Source of the DNA: Chloroflexota bacterium
GTDB taxonomy: Bacteria; Chloroflexota; Chloroflexia; QHBQ01; JADMIH01
Direction of reading: 5' to 3'
DNA length: 8,913 nucleotides
NCBI GenBank assembly: GCA_015478675.1
Contig: JADMIH010000158.1
Span: 1 to 8,913 of the forward strand
Numbering within the stretch: the first letter of the stretch is position 1; every line of letters begins with the position of its first letter. The translations under genes were made by a program, and so were the position numbers. The notes beneath the pieces were generated by a model. It was not told the origin of the DNA and did no database searches. It was given only the letters and a program-made list of their open reading frames with translations. This document shows, piece after piece, positions 301-8,678 of the stretch.

Positions 301-1029
301 TCAGCCCCGACCCACAGCAGGAGGCAAGTCCTCGGCGATAGCTAGCAGGCGTTCGGGCTTGCGGATCAACACTCGTGAGCGGCCACCCTCGACCAGGCCC
401 TGGGCTTCCCAATCGCTCAAGATGCGGCTGACGGTGAAGAGGGTCGTGCCTGTCATCTCGGCAATATCCTGCCGCGAGAGGGTGAGATCAAGCAGTGTGC
501 CACCCTCTACGGTACGGCCAATCTGCTGCGACAACCGCAGCAAGGCATGAGCCACTCGCCTCTCGACTCGCTCCGTCGCCAGCTCACGGCAGCGGTCCTG
601 AAACTCATGCAGCCGTCCCACAAGGAAGCGTATCGCGTTGAGAGCGATGGGTGGGAACCTCTCCATAAGATCGCCTATGACATCGCTCTCCCAGCCGAGC
701 GCCGCGCACATGCTCTGTGCCTCACCCGTTGCAGGGTGAAAAGCATCGCCCAGCGCGGCTACCGCCCCGAACATCTCTCCGGGGCCAATCACACGCAGCA
801 ACACCTGGTGACCTTCGGGCGTAATCTGAGTGAACTTCACTCGCCCCTCGGTCAGCACATAAAGCACCCGGGCCGGGTCGCCCTCGTAGAAGAAGAACGC
901 GCCGCTACTGACCCGCCGCAGGCGAGCCACCCTAGCTACCTCTGTGAGGGCAGCAGGCTCAAGCCCATGAAAGAGGGCGCTCTTCTCCAGGTATTGCAGA
1001 TAGCGTCTTTGCTCCGGCGTTGTATTCAT
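301..1029 (-). CDS. Crp/Fnr-family transcriptional regulator
   Basis: A 242-residue regulator with the two-domain Crp/Fnr plan. An N-terminal cyclic-nucleotide-binding-type beta-roll covers about residues 15-120 (FFFYEGDPARVLYVLTEG, then IGPGEMFG). A long dimerisation helix follows at about 125-160, then a C-terminal winged helix-turn-helix at about 180-225 (SRQDIAEMTGTTLFTVSRIL). Only Cys108 and Cys147 are present, so the four-cysteine iron-sulphur set of FNR is missing. The ligand could be heme/NO, a nucleotide or nothing; sequence alone does not say. It is the second gene of an operon, 42 bases after the selenocysteine-type redoxin and in the same reading frame, which suggests a redox or nitrogen-oxide response (inference). 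I chose ATG at 1029. A TTG at 1056 would add nine residues including one Cys. Neither has a good Shine-Dalgarno sequence, so translational coupling to the upstream gene is possible. It ends in TGA just before a terminator. Confidence 0.88.
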   Translation of the reverse strand: MNTTPEQRRYLQYLEKSALFHGLEPAALTEVARVARLRRVSSGAFFFYEGDPARVLYVLTEGRVKFTQITPEGHQVLLRVIGPGEMFGAVAALGDAFHPATGEAQSMCAALGWESDVIGDLMERFPPIALNAIRFLVGRLHEFQDRCRELATERVERRVAHALLRLSQQIGRTVEGGTLLDLTLSRQDIAEMTGTTLFTVSRILSDWEAQGLVEGGRSRVLIRKPERLLAIAEDLPPAVGRG

Positions 1030-1056
1030 CTTAGATGTGCGATCTTTGCAAACCAA

Positions 1057-1070
1057 AGCGGCGCACCGCT
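1057..1070 (-). other. Small hairpin between redoxin and regulator genes
   Basis: One base after the redoxin stop codon the transcript can fold AGCGG, a UGCG loop and CCGCU (5 bp), followed by UUUG. It could weakly attenuate or protect the message between the two cistrons. It lies only about 5 nt after the UGA, too close to serve as a bacterial SECIS for that codon, which supports reading 1074-1072 as a true stop. Confidence 0.35.
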
Positions 1071-1071
1071 G

Positions 1072-1317
1072 TCACAAATAACCTTCACGCGCCAGTACCT
1101 CTATCAGTAGAGGCTCGCCCGTGTAATCTGTTATAACTGTGTTGCCCGCTTCTATAACGGGCAAGAACTCGTAACCCTTGTCGAGAAACTCACGCTTGGC
1201 TTCAGGGCTGCTGCTGATGTTGCGCTCCTCAAAGGGCACACCCATGCGCGAGAGAAACTCCCTCGCATCGTGGCACGGCCCTCAGAGGTTCCCTATGTAG
1301 AGTACCACAGGCGGCAT
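1072..1317 (-). CDS. Glutaredoxin-like selenoprotein (UGPC active site, in-frame TGA)
   Basis: An 81-residue thioredoxin-fold protein, the normal length for a bacterial glutaredoxin/NrdH-type redoxin. Residues 1-11 (MPPVVLYIGNL) form the first beta strand. Codon 12 (1284-1282) is TGA, then Gly13-Pro14-Cys15, then helix HDAREFLSRMGVPFEERNI, a predicted cis-Pro at 53 (FLPVIEAG) and a C-terminal helix to residue 81. TGA thus replaces exactly the N-terminal, nucleophilic Cys of the CGPC motif, the classic position of selenocysteine in redoxins. The frame is open for 69 codons after it. AAAGGAG (1334-1328) precedes the ATG by 10 bases, so the true start lies upstream of the TGA. A SECIS-like hairpin follows. 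Likely role: cytosolic reduction of disulfides, mixed thiols or peroxides. Alternatives are a Cys-to-TGA point mutation (pseudogene) or a sequencing error. An internal start at Met25 would lose the active site. The redoxin identity is firmer than the Sec decoding. Confidence 0.8.
1234..1284 (-). promoter_or_regulatory. Candidate bacterial SECIS hairpin after the in-frame UGA
   Basis: In the message, counting from the base after UGA, G1-C4 can pair with 45-48, C10-C12 with 41-43, A14-G18 with 34-38, and A19-G22 with U31-C28. This leaves an apical AGUUU loop at 23-27. An alternative apical stem pairs 16-22 with 34-28 and keeps the same loop. The loop starts 22 nt after UGA, and its second base is G followed by U. 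Published descriptions of bacterial SECIS elements call for a loop about 16-37 nt downstream with a G among its first two bases; this agrees. The pairing was done by hand and no folding energy was computed. Confidence 0.6.
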
Positions 1318-1327
1318 AAAGTTATTA

Positions 1328-1342
1328 CTCCTTTCATGAAAG
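1328..1342 (-). promoter_or_regulatory. Ribosome site and overlapping palindrome of the selenoprotein gene
   Basis: AAAGGAG at 1334-1328 (minus) is a strong ribosome site 10 bases from the ATG at 1317. It overlaps a perfect 12-base palindrome, CTTTCATGAAAG (1331-1342). In RNA the CUUU/AAAG arms could partly cover the ribosome site; in DNA it could be an operator. CATGA and TCATG also form inverted arms at 1335-1339 and 1350-1354. The -10-like CATAAT at 1365-1360 with TTGTAT 15 bases upstream is only a weak promoter candidate. Confidence 0.45.
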
Positions 1343-1490: not shown

Positions 1491-1715
1491 ATGCCAGGAG
1501 ACAAAAAAGAGAAGGACGAAGCAGAAGAGGTCAGTTTCGAATACGATCAGAAACCTCCGTCAGTAGACCTGCTCAGCTACAAGAATATGATCATAGAGAT
1601 GAACAAGTGGGCACGCACTGATAACGGGTGGGGGTCTGTAATAGCGCTCTTTGTCTTCATGTTCTCCTGTATATTCGCGATAGTACTCGCGGTCGCCTTG
1701 CTCAACTTGCTCTAG
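1491..1715 (+). CDS. Small single-pass membrane protein, function unknown
   Basis: A 74-residue protein I do not recognise. Residues 1-20 are strongly charged (KKEKDEAEEVSFEYD). Residues 21-47 are a polar stretch with two Trp (WARTDNGWGS), and residues about 49-73 form one long hydrophobic helix (VIALFVFMFSCIFAIVLAVALL). It is therefore probably a C-terminally anchored protein with its N terminus in the cytosol. GAGG at 1477-1480 stands 10 bases before the ATG, which is weak but acceptable. The gene is divergent from the selenoprotein operon (174-base gap) and is followed 18 bases later by a strong terminator, which argues that it is a real single-gene transcript. I see no convincing promoter hexamer pair. 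A role linked to the neighbouring redox operon is possible but unsupported. Confidence 0.6.
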   Translation: MPGDKKEKDEAEEVSFEYDQKPPSVDLLSYKNMIIEMNKWARTDNGWGSVIALFVFMFSCIFAIVLAVALLNLL

Positions 1716-3960: not shown

Positions 3961-4103
3961 GGCGCATCGTAACTGTTCAGACTTGAGGTGGAAGGGCTAG
4001 CCCAACCCCCTCTCCCTTCATGGGAGAGGGGGTTGGGGATGAGAGTTGGCAAGGGCACTGGCTCCTTGCCTCCACCTCAAGTCTGAACTGTTACGGCGCA
4101 TCG
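3961..4103. mobile_element. MITE-like non-autonomous element with target duplication
   Basis: The direct repeat GGCGCATCG flanks the element at 3961-3969 and 4095-4103. Between the copies, 24-base ends at 3969-3992 (GTAACTGTTCAGACTT...) and 4071-4094 are inverted copies with one mismatch. If the ends are symmetrical (GTAAC/GTTAC) the target duplication is 8 bp; otherwise 9 bp. The body (126 bp in all) encodes nothing. It holds a perfect 16-bp stem (4001-4016 with 4022-4037, loop TTCAT) and a second 7-bp stem (4048-4054 with 4064-4070). Inverted ends plus a duplication of this length indicate insertion by a DDE-type transposase acting in trans. I cannot name the family. Confidence 0.8.
4001..4037. 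repeat. Perfect 16-bp C-rich/G-rich palindrome inside the mobile element
   Basis: CCCAACCCCCTCTCCC, a five-base loop and its exact complement. From memory, similar C-rich/G-rich palindromes are dispersed in some Chloroflexi and cyanobacterial genomes. No T-run follows on either strand, so it is not a classical terminator, though it would be a strong RNA hairpin if transcribed. Confidence 0.7.
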
Positions 4104-4377: not shown

Positions 4378-7242
4378 CTACTGTATCTTATTGTACTCGG
4401 CTATGGCTTCCTGGTAGAGGCCCTGCTTCATATACAGGTCGCCCATCACCTGGTGGAAGCGGCTCTGACCGTGGAGAGTGGGGTCGAACTCCGCAAGCTC
4501 GTCGCCTATCATCTGCAAGATTGTCGGTGAGACATTACGCTGCTTCAATATCCGCCTGTACACTCTGAGAGCAGGATCGAAATCACCCGCCTGGGTGTAG
4601 GCAGCAGCAAGGGCCATGTGTGCACTTACATCATTCGGATTGTGCTCGATGATGTTCTGAAGCTCAACAAAGCTATCAAGCTCAGGTAGGGGGCCGGAGC
4701 TTAAGAGCTTACTGGGGAAAGTAATCGGCTGCTCATTTTCCTGTTGCGGTTGCATAGCTCTAACTGCCTGTCCGGACGTTTGGCGCTCCGTGTCATTGGC
4801 GGTTTTACTATTCATATCAGCGTTCTCCTTTTGTGGTTCTCTAAAGTCTAATTCCTGATAGTCATCTGAATGTCGCGCCGCAAAAGCAGAGCGAGCACCG
4901 TATCCACTGTTCATCACTCGCGCCTTATAGATACCCTCTGCCTGGCCTGTAGCATCTGCTCTGCTTTCTTCCTTCGCTGATACTGAAGGTTCAGAGAGGC
5001 TATCGGCCTCATTACGCTGCCGTGATGCCTGCACATCCTCAGCGCTCAACCAGCCTGTAGGCAATTCATCGCCGGCATCTTCAGCGTGCATAGTTGGCCT
5101 GTTGAAGATAGAAGTGTCGCTCTCATTACTGTCCCAGAAGTCCTCACCCAATTGCTCTTGCTGCTTTTGGGGTGCCGCAGCTTCAGCAAGTGGAGCTAGC
5201 TTTTTCGTACCTCGACCTTTAGTTGCTGCCGACGCATCATCAGTTGGATTGGGCAGGTCAGCAGGGTTCTCTTTCTCGGCAAGATGGATGTTTGTAAAGT
5301 CGAAGGGCGCAACATCAAGATCGGCCACCGTCAGGTTTTCGGTGCTGGTCATCCTGTCAGCATCAGCTGACGATAGAGAACCCGTCCGGCGGTCAACTGC
5401 ATCTAACGCCAGGCTGCTCGTAACCGTAGCAGTCCAGCCCGGCTTGCGCGTCTTATCCACAACGGTGGAAGGCTCGATCTTACCCGTTTTGTGCTTTCCA
5501 CCATTGGGTGAATTCTCAGCAGGACTTTCCTCTACGACCGGGGCGGCGGGCTGCGGGGCAAGAGCCTGCCCAACGGGGGTTGCTGCTTCGTTCTCTCTGC
5601 CTGCGTTGAAATCAAGGACGCCAGATATGGGGCTTGATATAGAGCCGCCGCCTATGACATCAGCCAGCGCTTCGAGATTGGCCGTCACCATCATAGGCTC
5701 GTGGTGCATGGGCAGGCCGCCCGTTAACTCTTGTGTGCTGAAGCCCAGGCCATCATCAATTTCCTCTAATCCCAGAAGCGAGAAATCGAATGGCTCGATC
5801 GGTGGGAGATCAGCAAAGCTCTGCTCTGCGGGCTGCTGGAAGGCGGGTGCCCTCTCCATTATAACAGTGGGCACAGTGGCGGGTACTTCAACTGCGGTTG
5901 TCGCCTTAGATGCAGCCTCTACGTACCCCTCGCCGGGTGTAACCTCCACCTCGGCGGCATCGCGCAACCAGAAAGGCAACTCGCCCCCCGCGCCTTCAAC
6001 GGTGGGGTTTAGACGCATCGGCGGCACGGCACTCGCCTCAGTGGGCGCATCCGGCGTTGTGCCTGTGACGCTGCCGGATGCGTCCGGCGCAAAGGCGTTC
6101 GCCATCTCCGCTACGGCGGGCATGAACTCCTCTACCTGCGCATCAGGGAGCGAGGCCATATCGAGAGAGGTGCCCCTGTCGAACATAAAGCTCTCAAACT
6201 CTATATCGTCGCCTCCAAAGCCGTGTGTCCCTTGTACCGGGGTCTGCTCTTCTCCAGCGCCGGATAGACTCACCTCGGAGAGTGATGCGCTAGCCGCAGA
6301 TGGCACTTCGTAAGTAGCAGGCTCCTGAGCTATCTGCCCCTCAGCGGCCATCAAAGGCTCAAAGGGCGTTACGCCAGGCTCAAGCTCTGACGCATCGAAA
6401 GCCTCTTGTGGAAGGGCTGTTTCTTCAACTATAAAGGGTGTGTATTCTACTGTGGTTTCAGAGACGTCGCCGGAGAGATAACCAGGCTCCTCCCTCTTTG
6501 TAGAGAGTTCGGAGGCAATCGGTGACATCTCTGAGACAGCTCGCGCTGCCCAGTCGGGCATAGTGCGCTCGTCTGCTTGCTCCTGGCTATCTACCGCCGG
6601 TGCAAAGTCGGCGGCGGGTGCAACACTATCCAAAGCATTCTTGCCTGCGCGCATGGCAATAAGCACAGCGCTGAAATCTTCTATACCGGCGAGCGAGCTG
6701 TCGCTCCAGGTTAGCGGCTGCTCAGCAGAGGGGGCATCACCGCCAGAAGATGCATCCGCCATCCCCAACCTTTGGGATAAGGGACCTGACATATTAGTCA
6801 GAGCTGTGCCCACAGGGCCTGTGCTCATGGGGCCCGCCACGCCCCGGCCAAGCCTCCCCTGGAGAGGTGTAGAAAGCGAATGGGAAAGCGCGCCTGAGTC
6901 GCGTACCGCAACGCCGTCGGTCTGGGGGGCGTTGCTTTCCTGAGGAGCTTCACCGGCTTGCATGTAGGCAGGCACGGCAGGCACTTGCACTTCCTCTCCC
7001 GTCACAGGGGAAGCGACAGAAGCCGCCTCTGATTCTCCGGCCTGCGATCCGTCGAGAGAAGACGGCGCGCTTTCGCTGCGCATGAGCTCTGCGTTATCTG
7101 ATGTAGCTTCGACAGGCTTTACCCCGGCATCTTCGCCCGCGTCGAACATGAACGCCTCGAACTCAATATCCTCGCCATTGAACCTCTGCGCGGGATCATC
7201 CTGCGAAACTTCACCGCTTTGCTGGCGCTTATCTTTGTTCAT
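4378..7242 (-). CDS. Large acidic, disordered protein with C-terminal TPR region
   Basis: A 954-residue protein of unknown function. Residues 1-850 are rich in Ala, Glu, Ser, Pro and Thr, almost free of Cys and probably disordered, with no signal peptide or membrane segment. Short motifs recur: RFNGEDIEFEAFMFD (20-34) and GFGGDDIEFESFMFD (341-355); PFDFSLLGLEEID (484-496) and PFDFTNIHLAE (646-656); and Trp motifs MPDWAARA (228), LPFWLRDA (422), LPTGWLSAED (727). Residues about 855-954 carry tetratricopeptide repeats (NDVSAHMALAAAYTQAGDFDPALRVYRRIL at 870-899; FHQVMGDLYMKQGLYQEAIAEYNKI at 929-953), with the protein ending on the last helix. TPRs bind partner proteins, so it may be a cytosolic scaffold (inference). 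AGGAGGG 8 bases before ATG 7242 fixes the start. It lies 164 bases downstream of sbcD with no clear promoter between, so cotranscription is possible. Confidence 0.85.
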   Translation of the reverse strand: MNKDKRQQSGEVSQDDPAQRFNGEDIEFEAFMFDAGEDAGVKPVEATSDNAELMRSESAPSSLDGSQAGESEAASVASPVTGEEVQVPAVPAYMQAGEAPQESNAPQTDGVAVRDSGALSHSLSTPLQGRLGRGVAGPMSTGPVGTALTNMSGPLSQRLGMADASSGGDAPSAEQPLTWSDSSLAGIEDFSAVLIAMRAGKNALDSVAPAADFAPAVDSQEQADERTMPDWAARAVSEMSPIASELSTKREEPGYLSGDVSETTVEYTPFIVEETALPQEAFDASELEPGVTPFEPLMAAEGQIAQEPATYEVPSAASASLSEVSLSGAGEEQTPVQGTHGFGGDDIEFESFMFDRGTSLDMASLPDAQVEEFMPAVAEMANAFAPDASGSVTGTTPDAPTEASAVPPMRLNPTVEGAGGELPFWLRDAAEVEVTPGEGYVEAASKATTAVEVPATVPTVIMERAPAFQQPAEQSFADLPPIEPFDFSLLGLEEIDDGLGFSTQELTGGLPMHHEPMMVTANLEALADVIGGGSISSPISGVLDFNAGRENEAATPVGQALAPQPAAPVVEESPAENSPNGGKHKTGKIEPSTVVDKTRKPGWTATVTSSLALDAVDRRTGSLSSADADRMTSTENLTVADLDVAPFDFTNIHLAEKENPADLPNPTDDASAATKGRGTKKLAPLAEAAAPQKQQEQLGEDFWDSNESDTSIFNRPTMHAEDAGDELPTGWLSAEDVQASRQRNEADSLSEPSVSAKEESRADATGQAEGIYKARVMNSGYGARSAFAARHSDDYQELDFREPQKENADMNSKTANDTERQTSGQAVRAMQPQQENEQPITFPSKLLSSGPLPELDSFVELQNIIEHNPNDVSAHMALAAAYTQAGDFDPALRVYRRILKQRNVSPTILQMIGDELAEFDPTLHGQSRFHQVMGDLYMKQGLYQEAIAEYNKIQ

Positions 7243-7406: not shown

Positions 7407-8678
7407 TTAATCCCTAGCCTGAGATTTTTCCGTCTCTACTAGTGTTACATTTAGCTTGTCGTAATACTTCAAGAGTGTTTGTATGCGCTCTGGTGTAGCT
7501 TCGCGGTTTTCCAGGTATGCAGCTAATGCCTCTCTGGGACTCATCTGCTCAATCGCGCCGTCGCCCATGCGCTGACGGTGAGGCCGTTCCGAGTTGGTCA
7601 CTACTATCATGTAAGAGGGCCTCTTGGAGTAAAGAGAGCTTCGGATTTCGTCCTGCCTGAGATCGCGCTGGTGCTCAGGCGTCGTCTCAATAATAAGGCG
7701 CACCACCGCACCCTCTATTTCGACCTCGCGCTCTTCGATGCGACGCAGCACCTCTTCTGTAGGGAAATCGCAGGCCGCACTCACCTTGATAGTCAGGAAG
7801 CGACGCGCCCTTACTTCATGAAAGGTGTGCCGCACCTCACGCATGCCCTCCGCGCCCGGCTCGTCTATCTCTACAGATACAAAGCCCTTCTTCTCGCGCT
7901 CTTCGCCGAAATCTATCCTCTCCAGTGAGCCTGGATAGACCATAGTCGGCCTCTGAAGGCTCAAAACCTGGTACTTATGGATGTGCCCCAGCGCCACGTA
8001 GTCGAAATGCGGGTTAGCAACAACACTCTTCGGCAGCACCACGTCCTGGCCGAGCATGATGTCCTTCTCAGAAGAGAGCACCGCCCCCTGTACTGAGGCG
8101 TGCGCCGTCAATACTGTGGGCATAGACGGGTCGAGCTTTTTGGCCGAGTTATCAATAAAATTCTCTATCATCGCCAGCAGCTCACGATTGAGCGCGTCGG
8201 GGTCAAGGTTGCGCCGCTCTCGATCTCGCAGCAGGTAAGAGCGCGAAATCCAGGGTAGCGCCACTATCTGCAAAGGCCCGGCCCTGGTTTCTACTATGTG
8301 CGTGCCCGGCTGCTGGGCGATAGTGACTTGGGGCACGGCCAGTGTAGAATATATCTCTACGGTGTTGGCGCGCTGAAAGGCGTTGGGCACGTCATGATTG
8401 CCCACCAGTATAAAGGTAGGCATACCGGCGGCGGATAGCTTGTGAATAGACCTGGCGAACTCGCGCTGCACTGTGGGGGTAGGGTCACGGTTCTTGAATA
8501 TATCCCCCGCGATGAGAACCAGATGTACGTCGTTTTCCAGCGCCCAATCGAGAGCCTGGTTGAGCGACTTAAGGAAATCGCCCAGGCGCGATGAAAGGCC
8601 CGTCACGGGGTCAATGCGGCCATAGTTTTCCATGCCAAGATGGATATCGGCCAGATGTAAAATACGCAATGTCGGCAA
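7407..8678 (-). CDS. sbcD: DNA repair exonuclease SbcD/Mre11 family
   Basis: A 423-residue calcineurin-like metallophosphoesterase of the SbcD/Mre11 type. With the ATPase SbcC (Rad50) such enzymes open DNA hairpins and process double-strand ends with manganese. All metal and catalytic motifs are present: DIHLG (Asp11, His13), AGDIF (Asp59), GNHD (Asn94-His95), AHASV (His193) and GHIHKY (His232, His234). A C-terminal capping domain follows (about 285-370), and a tail (375-423) may hold SbcC-binding helices. The start is TTG 8678: an in-frame TAA at 8684-8682 rules out any earlier start, and GAGAGG stands 11 bases upstream. A start at TTG 8669 is less likely. A strong promoter lies at 8768-8796. 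sbcC normally follows sbcD, but here the next gene is the TPR protein, so the SbcC partner must be encoded elsewhere or be absent. Confidence 0.93.
   Translation of the reverse strand: MPTLRILHLADIHLGMENYGRIDPVTGLSSRLGDFLKSLNQALDWALENDVHLVLIAGDIFKNRDPTPTVQREFARSIHKLSAAGMPTFILVGNHDVPNAFQRANTVEIYSTLAVPQVTIAQQPGTHIVETRAGPLQIVALPWISRSYLLRDRERRNLDPDALNRELLAMIENFIDNSAKKLDPSMPTVLTAHASVQGAVLSSEKDIMLGQDVVLPKSVVANPHFDYVALGHIHKYQVLSLQRPTMVYPGSLERIDFGEEREKKGFVSVEIDEPGAEGMREVRHTFHEVRARRFLTIKVSAACDFPTEEVLRRIEEREVEIEGAVVRLIIETTPEHQRDLRQDEIRSSLYSKRPSYMIVVTNSERPHRQRMGDGAIEQMSPREALAAYLENREATPERIQTLLKYYDKLNVTLVETEKSQARD

Follow-up and report, generated by a model that had tools for sequence, protein, structure and literature searches.

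The window, that is, the whole stretch of 8,913 nucleotides analyzed here, carries on its minus strand, at positions 1072..1317, a gene for a glutaredoxin-like redoxin of 81 residues, whose reading frame, match to Pfam family PF00462, and predicted fold point to a selenoprotein with selenocysteine (Sec) at residue 12, in the motif U-G-P-C. Translation of the minus strand from 1317 to 1072 gives MPPVVLYIGNL-U-GPCHDAREFLSRMG...EGYL, the full reading being MPPVVLYIGNL-TGA-GPCHDAREFLSRMGVPFEERNISSSPEAKREFLDKGYEFLPVIEAGNTVITDYTGEPLLIEVLAREGYL, followed by the terminal TGA (codon 82, 1072-1074, minus strand). The only in-frame stops of the gene are codons 12 and 82, both TGA. The TGA at codon 12 (1282..1284, minus strand) is read here as selenocysteine and as the putative catalytic nucleophile, on the basis of the truncation of relatives and of the TGA or Cys found at this site in distant homologues, and the TGC at codon 15 (1273..1275, minus strand) encodes the Cys that probably has the resolving role in the UxxC motif. 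On the same strand lie a Shine-Dalgarno-like AAGGAG (1328..1333), 10 nt upstream of the ATG, and the codon for Pro53 of FLPVIEAG (1159..1161). Within the coding sequence, also on the minus strand, there is a bacterial SECIS-like hairpin (1232..1283) with a core 9-bp stem at 1247-1267 and a GUU apical loop 23 nt past the UGA.

A sequence-only reading of this DNA had described a minus-strand frame running from ATG 1317, encoding an 81-residue redoxin with a single TGA interruption at codon 12, and our re-translation agrees with it. Its placement of this TGA at the nucleophile of a CGPC-type motif was borne out, codons 12 to 15 reading U-G-P-C, and the ribosome site that it saw before the ATG was found as AAGGAG. 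Its statement that standard gene callers miss the gene, neither half being long enough to be called, turned out to be wrong: the C-terminal part is called, mostly as a protein of 57 residues.

Downstream of the redoxin gene lies a gene for a Crp/Fnr-family regulator (301..1029, minus strand), whose ATG shares the frame of the redoxin and comes 42 nt past its stop, and the two genes may possibly be cotranscribed. In the gap that separates them is a weak terminator-like stem (1057-1070, minus strand), outside the minimum-energy fold of that region, and 900-1500 showed no sigma-70-like promoter. No match to the Crp/Fnr gene was present in the approximately 1.5 kb beside the UGA comparison loci (see below) fetched up to L101. 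Elsewhere in the window, an open reading frame of 74 residues with one membrane-like stretch, as judged by eye, diverges from the redoxin gene (1491-1715, plus strand) and has no match in Pfam or NCBIfam. A 954-residue protein with C-terminal TPR repeats is encoded at 4378-7242 (minus strand), and its long N-terminal part looks, to the eye, like an acidic low-complexity region. A nested inverted repeat at 3968-4095 lies between the TPR gene and secG; its outer arms measure 25 nt (96%), and inside them is a perfectly matching pair of 16-nt arms (CCCAACCCCCTCTCCC). In Rfam, three miRNA matches fell over this palindrome, all under their gathering scores.

With Cys put for the TGA, the conceptual protein scored 41.8 bits against the Pfam glutaredoxin family PF00462 (cutoff, 22.9), the query P0001 also holding the terminal TGA as an 82nd residue, and the match starts from residue 4 of the redoxin. 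The search of redoxin families suggested by the sequence-only reading thus returned a family above its cutoff. In none of the 12 NCBIfam families listed did the redoxin reach the curated cutoff; YruB came top with 38 bits (cutoff, 88.55), and NrdH and Uxx-star gave 36.8 bits (cutoff, 85.75) and 32.8 bits (cutoff, 66), respectively. AlphaFold2, run with 32 aligned sequences, predicted a glutaredoxin fold for the 81-residue form with a mean pLDDT of 93.7 and the element order E-H-E-H-E-E-H (E, strand; H, helix). The window row alone covers the first 17 residues of the alignment, because the other sequences start later. Codon 12 sits directly before predicted helix 13-24, and the model is a thioredoxin-type fold with an N-terminal U/CxxC/S motif. 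L52 and P53 are invariant among the 32 aligned sequences, and we take Pro53 to be probably the cis-Pro of the redoxin fold.

We then considered the close relatives of the redoxin. Some 5.8 billion proteins were searched, with 84 matches, and a profile search had 226 matches, 120 of them listed; from both lists, 129 distinct proteins were scored, namely, 128 relatives and the window's own fragment. Among the matches listed, every one of the 128 relatives starts after codon 12 and none spans it. All 129 listed proteins are 57 to 65 residues long and begin at the positions of window codons 18, 19, 21, or 25. Met25 is kept in 128 of them, including the 16 whose predicted start is upstream of it, and is itself the predicted start in 113 of the 129, the window's own included. 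A full-length 81-residue Cys form was not found among the matches listed, though it was within the length range searched. One listed relative is named as coming from a Chloroflexia bacterium, and a 57-residue relative (P0233) and P0108, a relative of the SbcD protein also encoded in the window, are each listed on a contig of 576,195 bases and probably belong to one genome of the same lineage.

This shared truncation suggests that the close relatives, too, have UGA at codon 12. Gene finders take this codon as a stop, so in databases the redoxin, like its close relatives, appears only in a form that lacks the N-terminal part, and at least 128 public protein entries may be such remnants of a single gene family. 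The sequence-only reading had held that a random stop would be very unlikely to fall on this codon; with all 128 listed relatives starting after it and a SECIS-type hairpin following it, its position is beyond chance. Of the homologues with Cys or TGA at the site that it had proposed to look for, distant ones were found with either, while close ones are known only as proteins truncated just past it.

The terminal UGA is the only stop between the redoxin and the Crp/Fnr gene, and in 1027-1074 (minus strand) it is followed by QRC, so that U-QRC has the form of a UxxC motif, with the Crp/Fnr ATG 15 codons on. Read-through of this second UGA, which would yield a second UxxC and a Crp/Fnr fusion, was considered and judged unlikely: codon 81 is the precise end of 125 of the 129 listed proteins, and the four extending beyond it (P0018, P0053, P0065, and P0211) have Q, G, H, or S as the next residue, not Cys. 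We give a second Sec with a redoxin-regulator fusion very little credence and hold U-QRC for chance.

The strongest evidence for the selenoprotein reading is the SECIS-type hairpin downstream of the UGA, which is absent from the sequence-only reading. The 53 nt from the UGA onward folded into a hairpin at -26.8 kcal/mol with a z-score of -3.05, which weakened with other flanks to -2.63, -1.63, and -0.76. The 54-nt stretch reached -27.1 kcal/mol, the lowest value among the codon-stepped 54-nt windows of the gene. Only 3 of 2,000 synonymous recodings folded as well (8, 2, and 4 of 2,000 for 51, 57, and 60 nt, respectively), and 3 of 2,159 windows in four neighboring genes attained the same energy. 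The published bSECIS model has a loop of 3 to 9 nt with a G in its first two positions, a stem of 4 to 16 bp, a spacing of 16 to 37 nt from the UGA, and a minimum free energy of -7.5 kcal/mol or lower (PMC13188914). The hairpin of the window lies within all of these bounds, with its GUU loop, 9 bp, 23 nt, and -27.1 kcal/mol. This loose geometry is not specific, as it also fits a 5-bp apical stem after the terminal UGA, which has a five-base loop starting with G (read by eye) 18 nt past the codon and an energy of -11.6 kcal/mol; the fold at that place is no better than shuffles (z-score of -0.55).

For comparison, redoxin loci of Chloroflexota genomes were fetched by a read-through search. Many of these redoxins have TGA exactly at the nucleophile and others have Cys; they fall into several paralogous types, none orthologous to the window gene. 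In 27 of 32 UGA loci, counting the window, a loop placed 22 or 23 nt past the codon is closed by a stem of 6 bp or more, versus 0 of 27 Cys loci (Fisher P = 7.8e-12, which is not a true probability because the loci are related, the register moreover having been picked after the first set was viewed). With the looser published geometry, hairpins of at least 6 bp were found in 30 of 32 UGA loci versus 6 of 27 Cys loci. The UGA loci without 6 bp at the fixed register were L109, L112, L116, L121, and L123, of which L112, L116, and L123 have 6 to 7 bp with a five-base loop. Five loci that do not fit the motif pattern were left unscored (L062, L086, and L089 of the Cys type and L099 and L101 of the UGA type); read individually, L099 and L101 both show the hairpin, its loop lying 23 nt past the codon. 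The scoring of L114 fell away from its match, and only those UGA matches that had been fetched as loci were scored. More than one UGA redoxin occurs in some genomes, two being scored in each of G297 and G345 and two in G318, which also holds L099.

The hairpin is nearly constant in sequence, reading GAG-UUU-CU or GAG-UUC-CU with the loop 22 to 23 nt after the UGA, and since these codons recur in most loci, it apparently also fixes the residues E-F-L of the protein. In the 11 loci with a three-base loop, 87.9% of the cells pair, 11 cells carry compensatory changes on both sides (shuffled mean, 3.2; a value reached by 0 of 500 shuffles), with a covariation score of 0.323 versus 0.122 (0 of 500 shuffles). 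Two of the five measures failed to exceed the shuffles, namely, the pairs with changes on both sides (3 versus 2.2; 193 of 500) and the further pair types (6 versus 6.5; 386 of 500), and the sequences are related. In the seven loci with a four-base loop, 91.1% of the cells pair (4 of 500 shuffles) and the covariation score is 0.214 versus 0.073 (4 of 500), both count measures (pairs with changes on both sides and further pair types) again being not above shuffles.

The lineage of the window was approached through its SbcD gene (7407-8678), whose named close relatives come from Chloroflexia or Chloroflexota metagenome-assembled genomes, thus placing the window in Chloroflexota. The best SbcD identities in genome contigs were 48 to 49% for full-length matches and 51% for a partial one (L051), and those in a draw of 377 genomes of the phylum were 53 and 50% (G179 and G269, of the class of G220). 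The class of G220, with 29 genomes, is the nearest one reached, and the window's own lineage lies outside the genomes compared. SelB was over the cutoff in 25 of these 29 genomes, with 2 of 14 controls, E. coli and M. jannaschii, also over it, and tRNA-Sec was over the cutoff in 23 of the 29; 5 of 14 controls were over it too, making the tRNA-Sec model less clean. G179 has SelB, tRNA-Sec, and a UGA redoxin, and G188, one of the four genomes of this class that lack SelB, carries a UGA redoxin. Among the 158 genomes in the class of G002, 114 had SelB over the cutoff. By hand-compiled counts, 26 of 27 genomes with a UGA redoxin were SelB positive versus 15 of 22 with only Cys redoxins (P = 0.016), or versus 15 of 21 without the doubtful G276 (P = 0.034). 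G096 was placed in the UGA group from its listed stops, and counting this genome as Cys only gives P = 0.019, or 0.038 without G276. The association of the UGA redoxin with SelB is thus in the expected direction but modest. A scan of the genome contigs with the redoxin alignment showed no relative, and the redoxin found 2 genomes at an E value of 1e-8 or lower in a draw of 400 genomes of the phylum. Of two scans of the viral collection, one gave a single locus, a Cys glutaredoxin with 33% identity, and the other gave none; plasmids gave one match of 37%.

Could the UGA at codon 12 simply be a true stop, with either a conserved C-terminal product from Met25 or a decayed gene? The near-universal retention of Met25 in the listed proteins and its frequency as the predicted start speak for such a product. 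However, the 24 codons upstream of Met25 are preceded by a Shine-Dalgarno sequence, encode the first strand of the redoxin and the helix with Cys15, and match PF00462 from residue 4; a piece lacking the first strand and the active site would presumably not be a working redoxin, and the SECIS-type hairpin would be left unexplained. We therefore regard a true stop as very unlikely. An error of sequencing or assembly by which TGC was read as TGA is conceivable in what is probably a metagenome contig, but 128 other proteins, from separate clusters, start after the same codon among the matches listed, and we consider such an error extremely improbable.

The remaining alternatives concern the residue inserted. 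UGA can serve for both Cys and Sec, and distant homologues do have Cys at the position of codon 12, which would suit a reading of the codon as cysteine, through a UGA-reading tRNA-Cys or a sulfur-charged Sec pathway. Against this, the adjacent hairpin fits recruitment of SelB, most genomes of the nearest class score over the cutoff for SelB and for tRNA-Sec, and no full-length Cys homologue of the clade is among the 129 listed proteins scored, leaving cysteine slightly less probable still than a true stop. A paper on tRNA-dependent cysteine in Chloroflexi deals, in the sections available, with SepRS and SepCysS and not with UGA as Cys (PMC5424206). A reassignment of UGA in the lineage, for example, to Trp or Gly, would make codon 12 an ordinary sense codon. 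Nothing was found in its favor; the five neighboring genes have 2,294 sense codons, 22 of them TGG, and are free of TGA by construction, being bounded by stops, but the long TGA-free open frames and the Crp/Fnr gene ending at TGA favor the standard code, and we consider reassignment extremely improbable.

Overall, these data argue strongly that the gene encodes a SelB-type selenoprotein, a Sec-containing thiol/disulfide oxidoreductase of the glutaredoxin fold, and that its catalytic residue is very probably selenocysteine. Computation places the frame, the U-G-P-C motif, the predicted fold, and the hairpin at this locus, while conservation and the machinery of related genomes point to the insertion of Sec. 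The glutaredoxin-like selenoprotein with a UGPC site proposed by the sequence-only reading is thus supported by the PF00462 match, the truncation of relatives, the TGA or Cys at the site, the hairpin, and the occurrence of SelB and tRNA-Sec in most genomes of the nearest class reached. In the mechanism that we propose, ribosomes would start at ATG 1317, the hairpin directly downstream of the UGA at codon 12 would recruit SelB with Sec-tRNA(Sec), selenocysteine would be inserted as the nucleophile of the U-G-P-C active site, and translation would terminate at the second UGA, codon 82. As is known of the family, the selenolate would attack the disulfide of the substrate and Cys15 would resolve the mixed selenenylsulfide. 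Since the motif is thioredoxin-like (xGPC), what recycles the redoxin may be thioredoxin reductase and not glutathione. More tentatively, and with slightly less than even confidence, we propose an undescribed Sec-only subfamily that would combine a thioredoxin-type UGPC site with a glutaredoxin/NrdH fold, use Sec across a whole uncultured Chloroflexota lineage, have no Cys orthologue, and be partnered by thioredoxin reductase instead of glutathione.

With this gene, an uncultured bacterial lineage gains a selenoprotein for which the support is good. The near constancy of the hairpin supplies a simple rule by which Sec redoxins can be sought in Chloroflexota, and the UGA/Cys pairs provide a natural setting in which to study the retention and loss of Sec.

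Among solved structures, the best relative by sequence is cGrx1 (PDB 7c10; E value, 1.3e-9), which also has the best Foldseek E value (TM-scores of 0.80 for 7c12 and 0.75 for 7c10) and is 30 to 32% identical to the window redoxin. We take cGrx1 to be a Clostridium oremlandii protein that is natively a selenoprotein. In the alignment, codon 12 falls on the first Cys of the CPHC motif of cGrx1, where the window redoxin has xGPC. NrdH redoxins and YruB-type glutaredoxins share its fold and length (1h75; E value, 2.1e-5), but it falls far under the NCBIfam cutoffs of both. The Chloroflexota UGA glutaredoxins of the comparison loci (PT-U-PWC, PG-U-APC, and HER-U-SAC; L063-L124) have UGA at the same codon, are 27 to 44% identical to the window redoxin, and in most cases carry a hairpin like that of the window at the same spacing.

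Sec-containing glutaredoxins with a UxxC motif are already known, and what is new here is a UGPC subfamily member from an uncultured Chloroflexota lineage. They appear as a row (PF00462, UxxC) in a table of Zhang et al. 2026, a review whose main text contains no word beginning with Chloroflex (PMC13188914). Zhang and Gladyshev (2006) report a glutaredoxin selenoprotein for each of Geobacter sulfurreducens, Alkaliphilus metalliredigenes, and Moorella thermoacetica and credit Chloroflexi with three families and three selenoproteins (PMC1794560). Among the papers listed on selenoproteins in Chloroflexota and on Sec-containing glutaredoxins, none describes the UGPC subfamily in its title or opening abstract. 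The window redoxin has in common with the described Sec-containing glutaredoxins the Pfam family, the Sec at the first position of UxxC, and the bSECIS-type hairpin after the UGA, and differs from them as a U-G-P-C subfamily.
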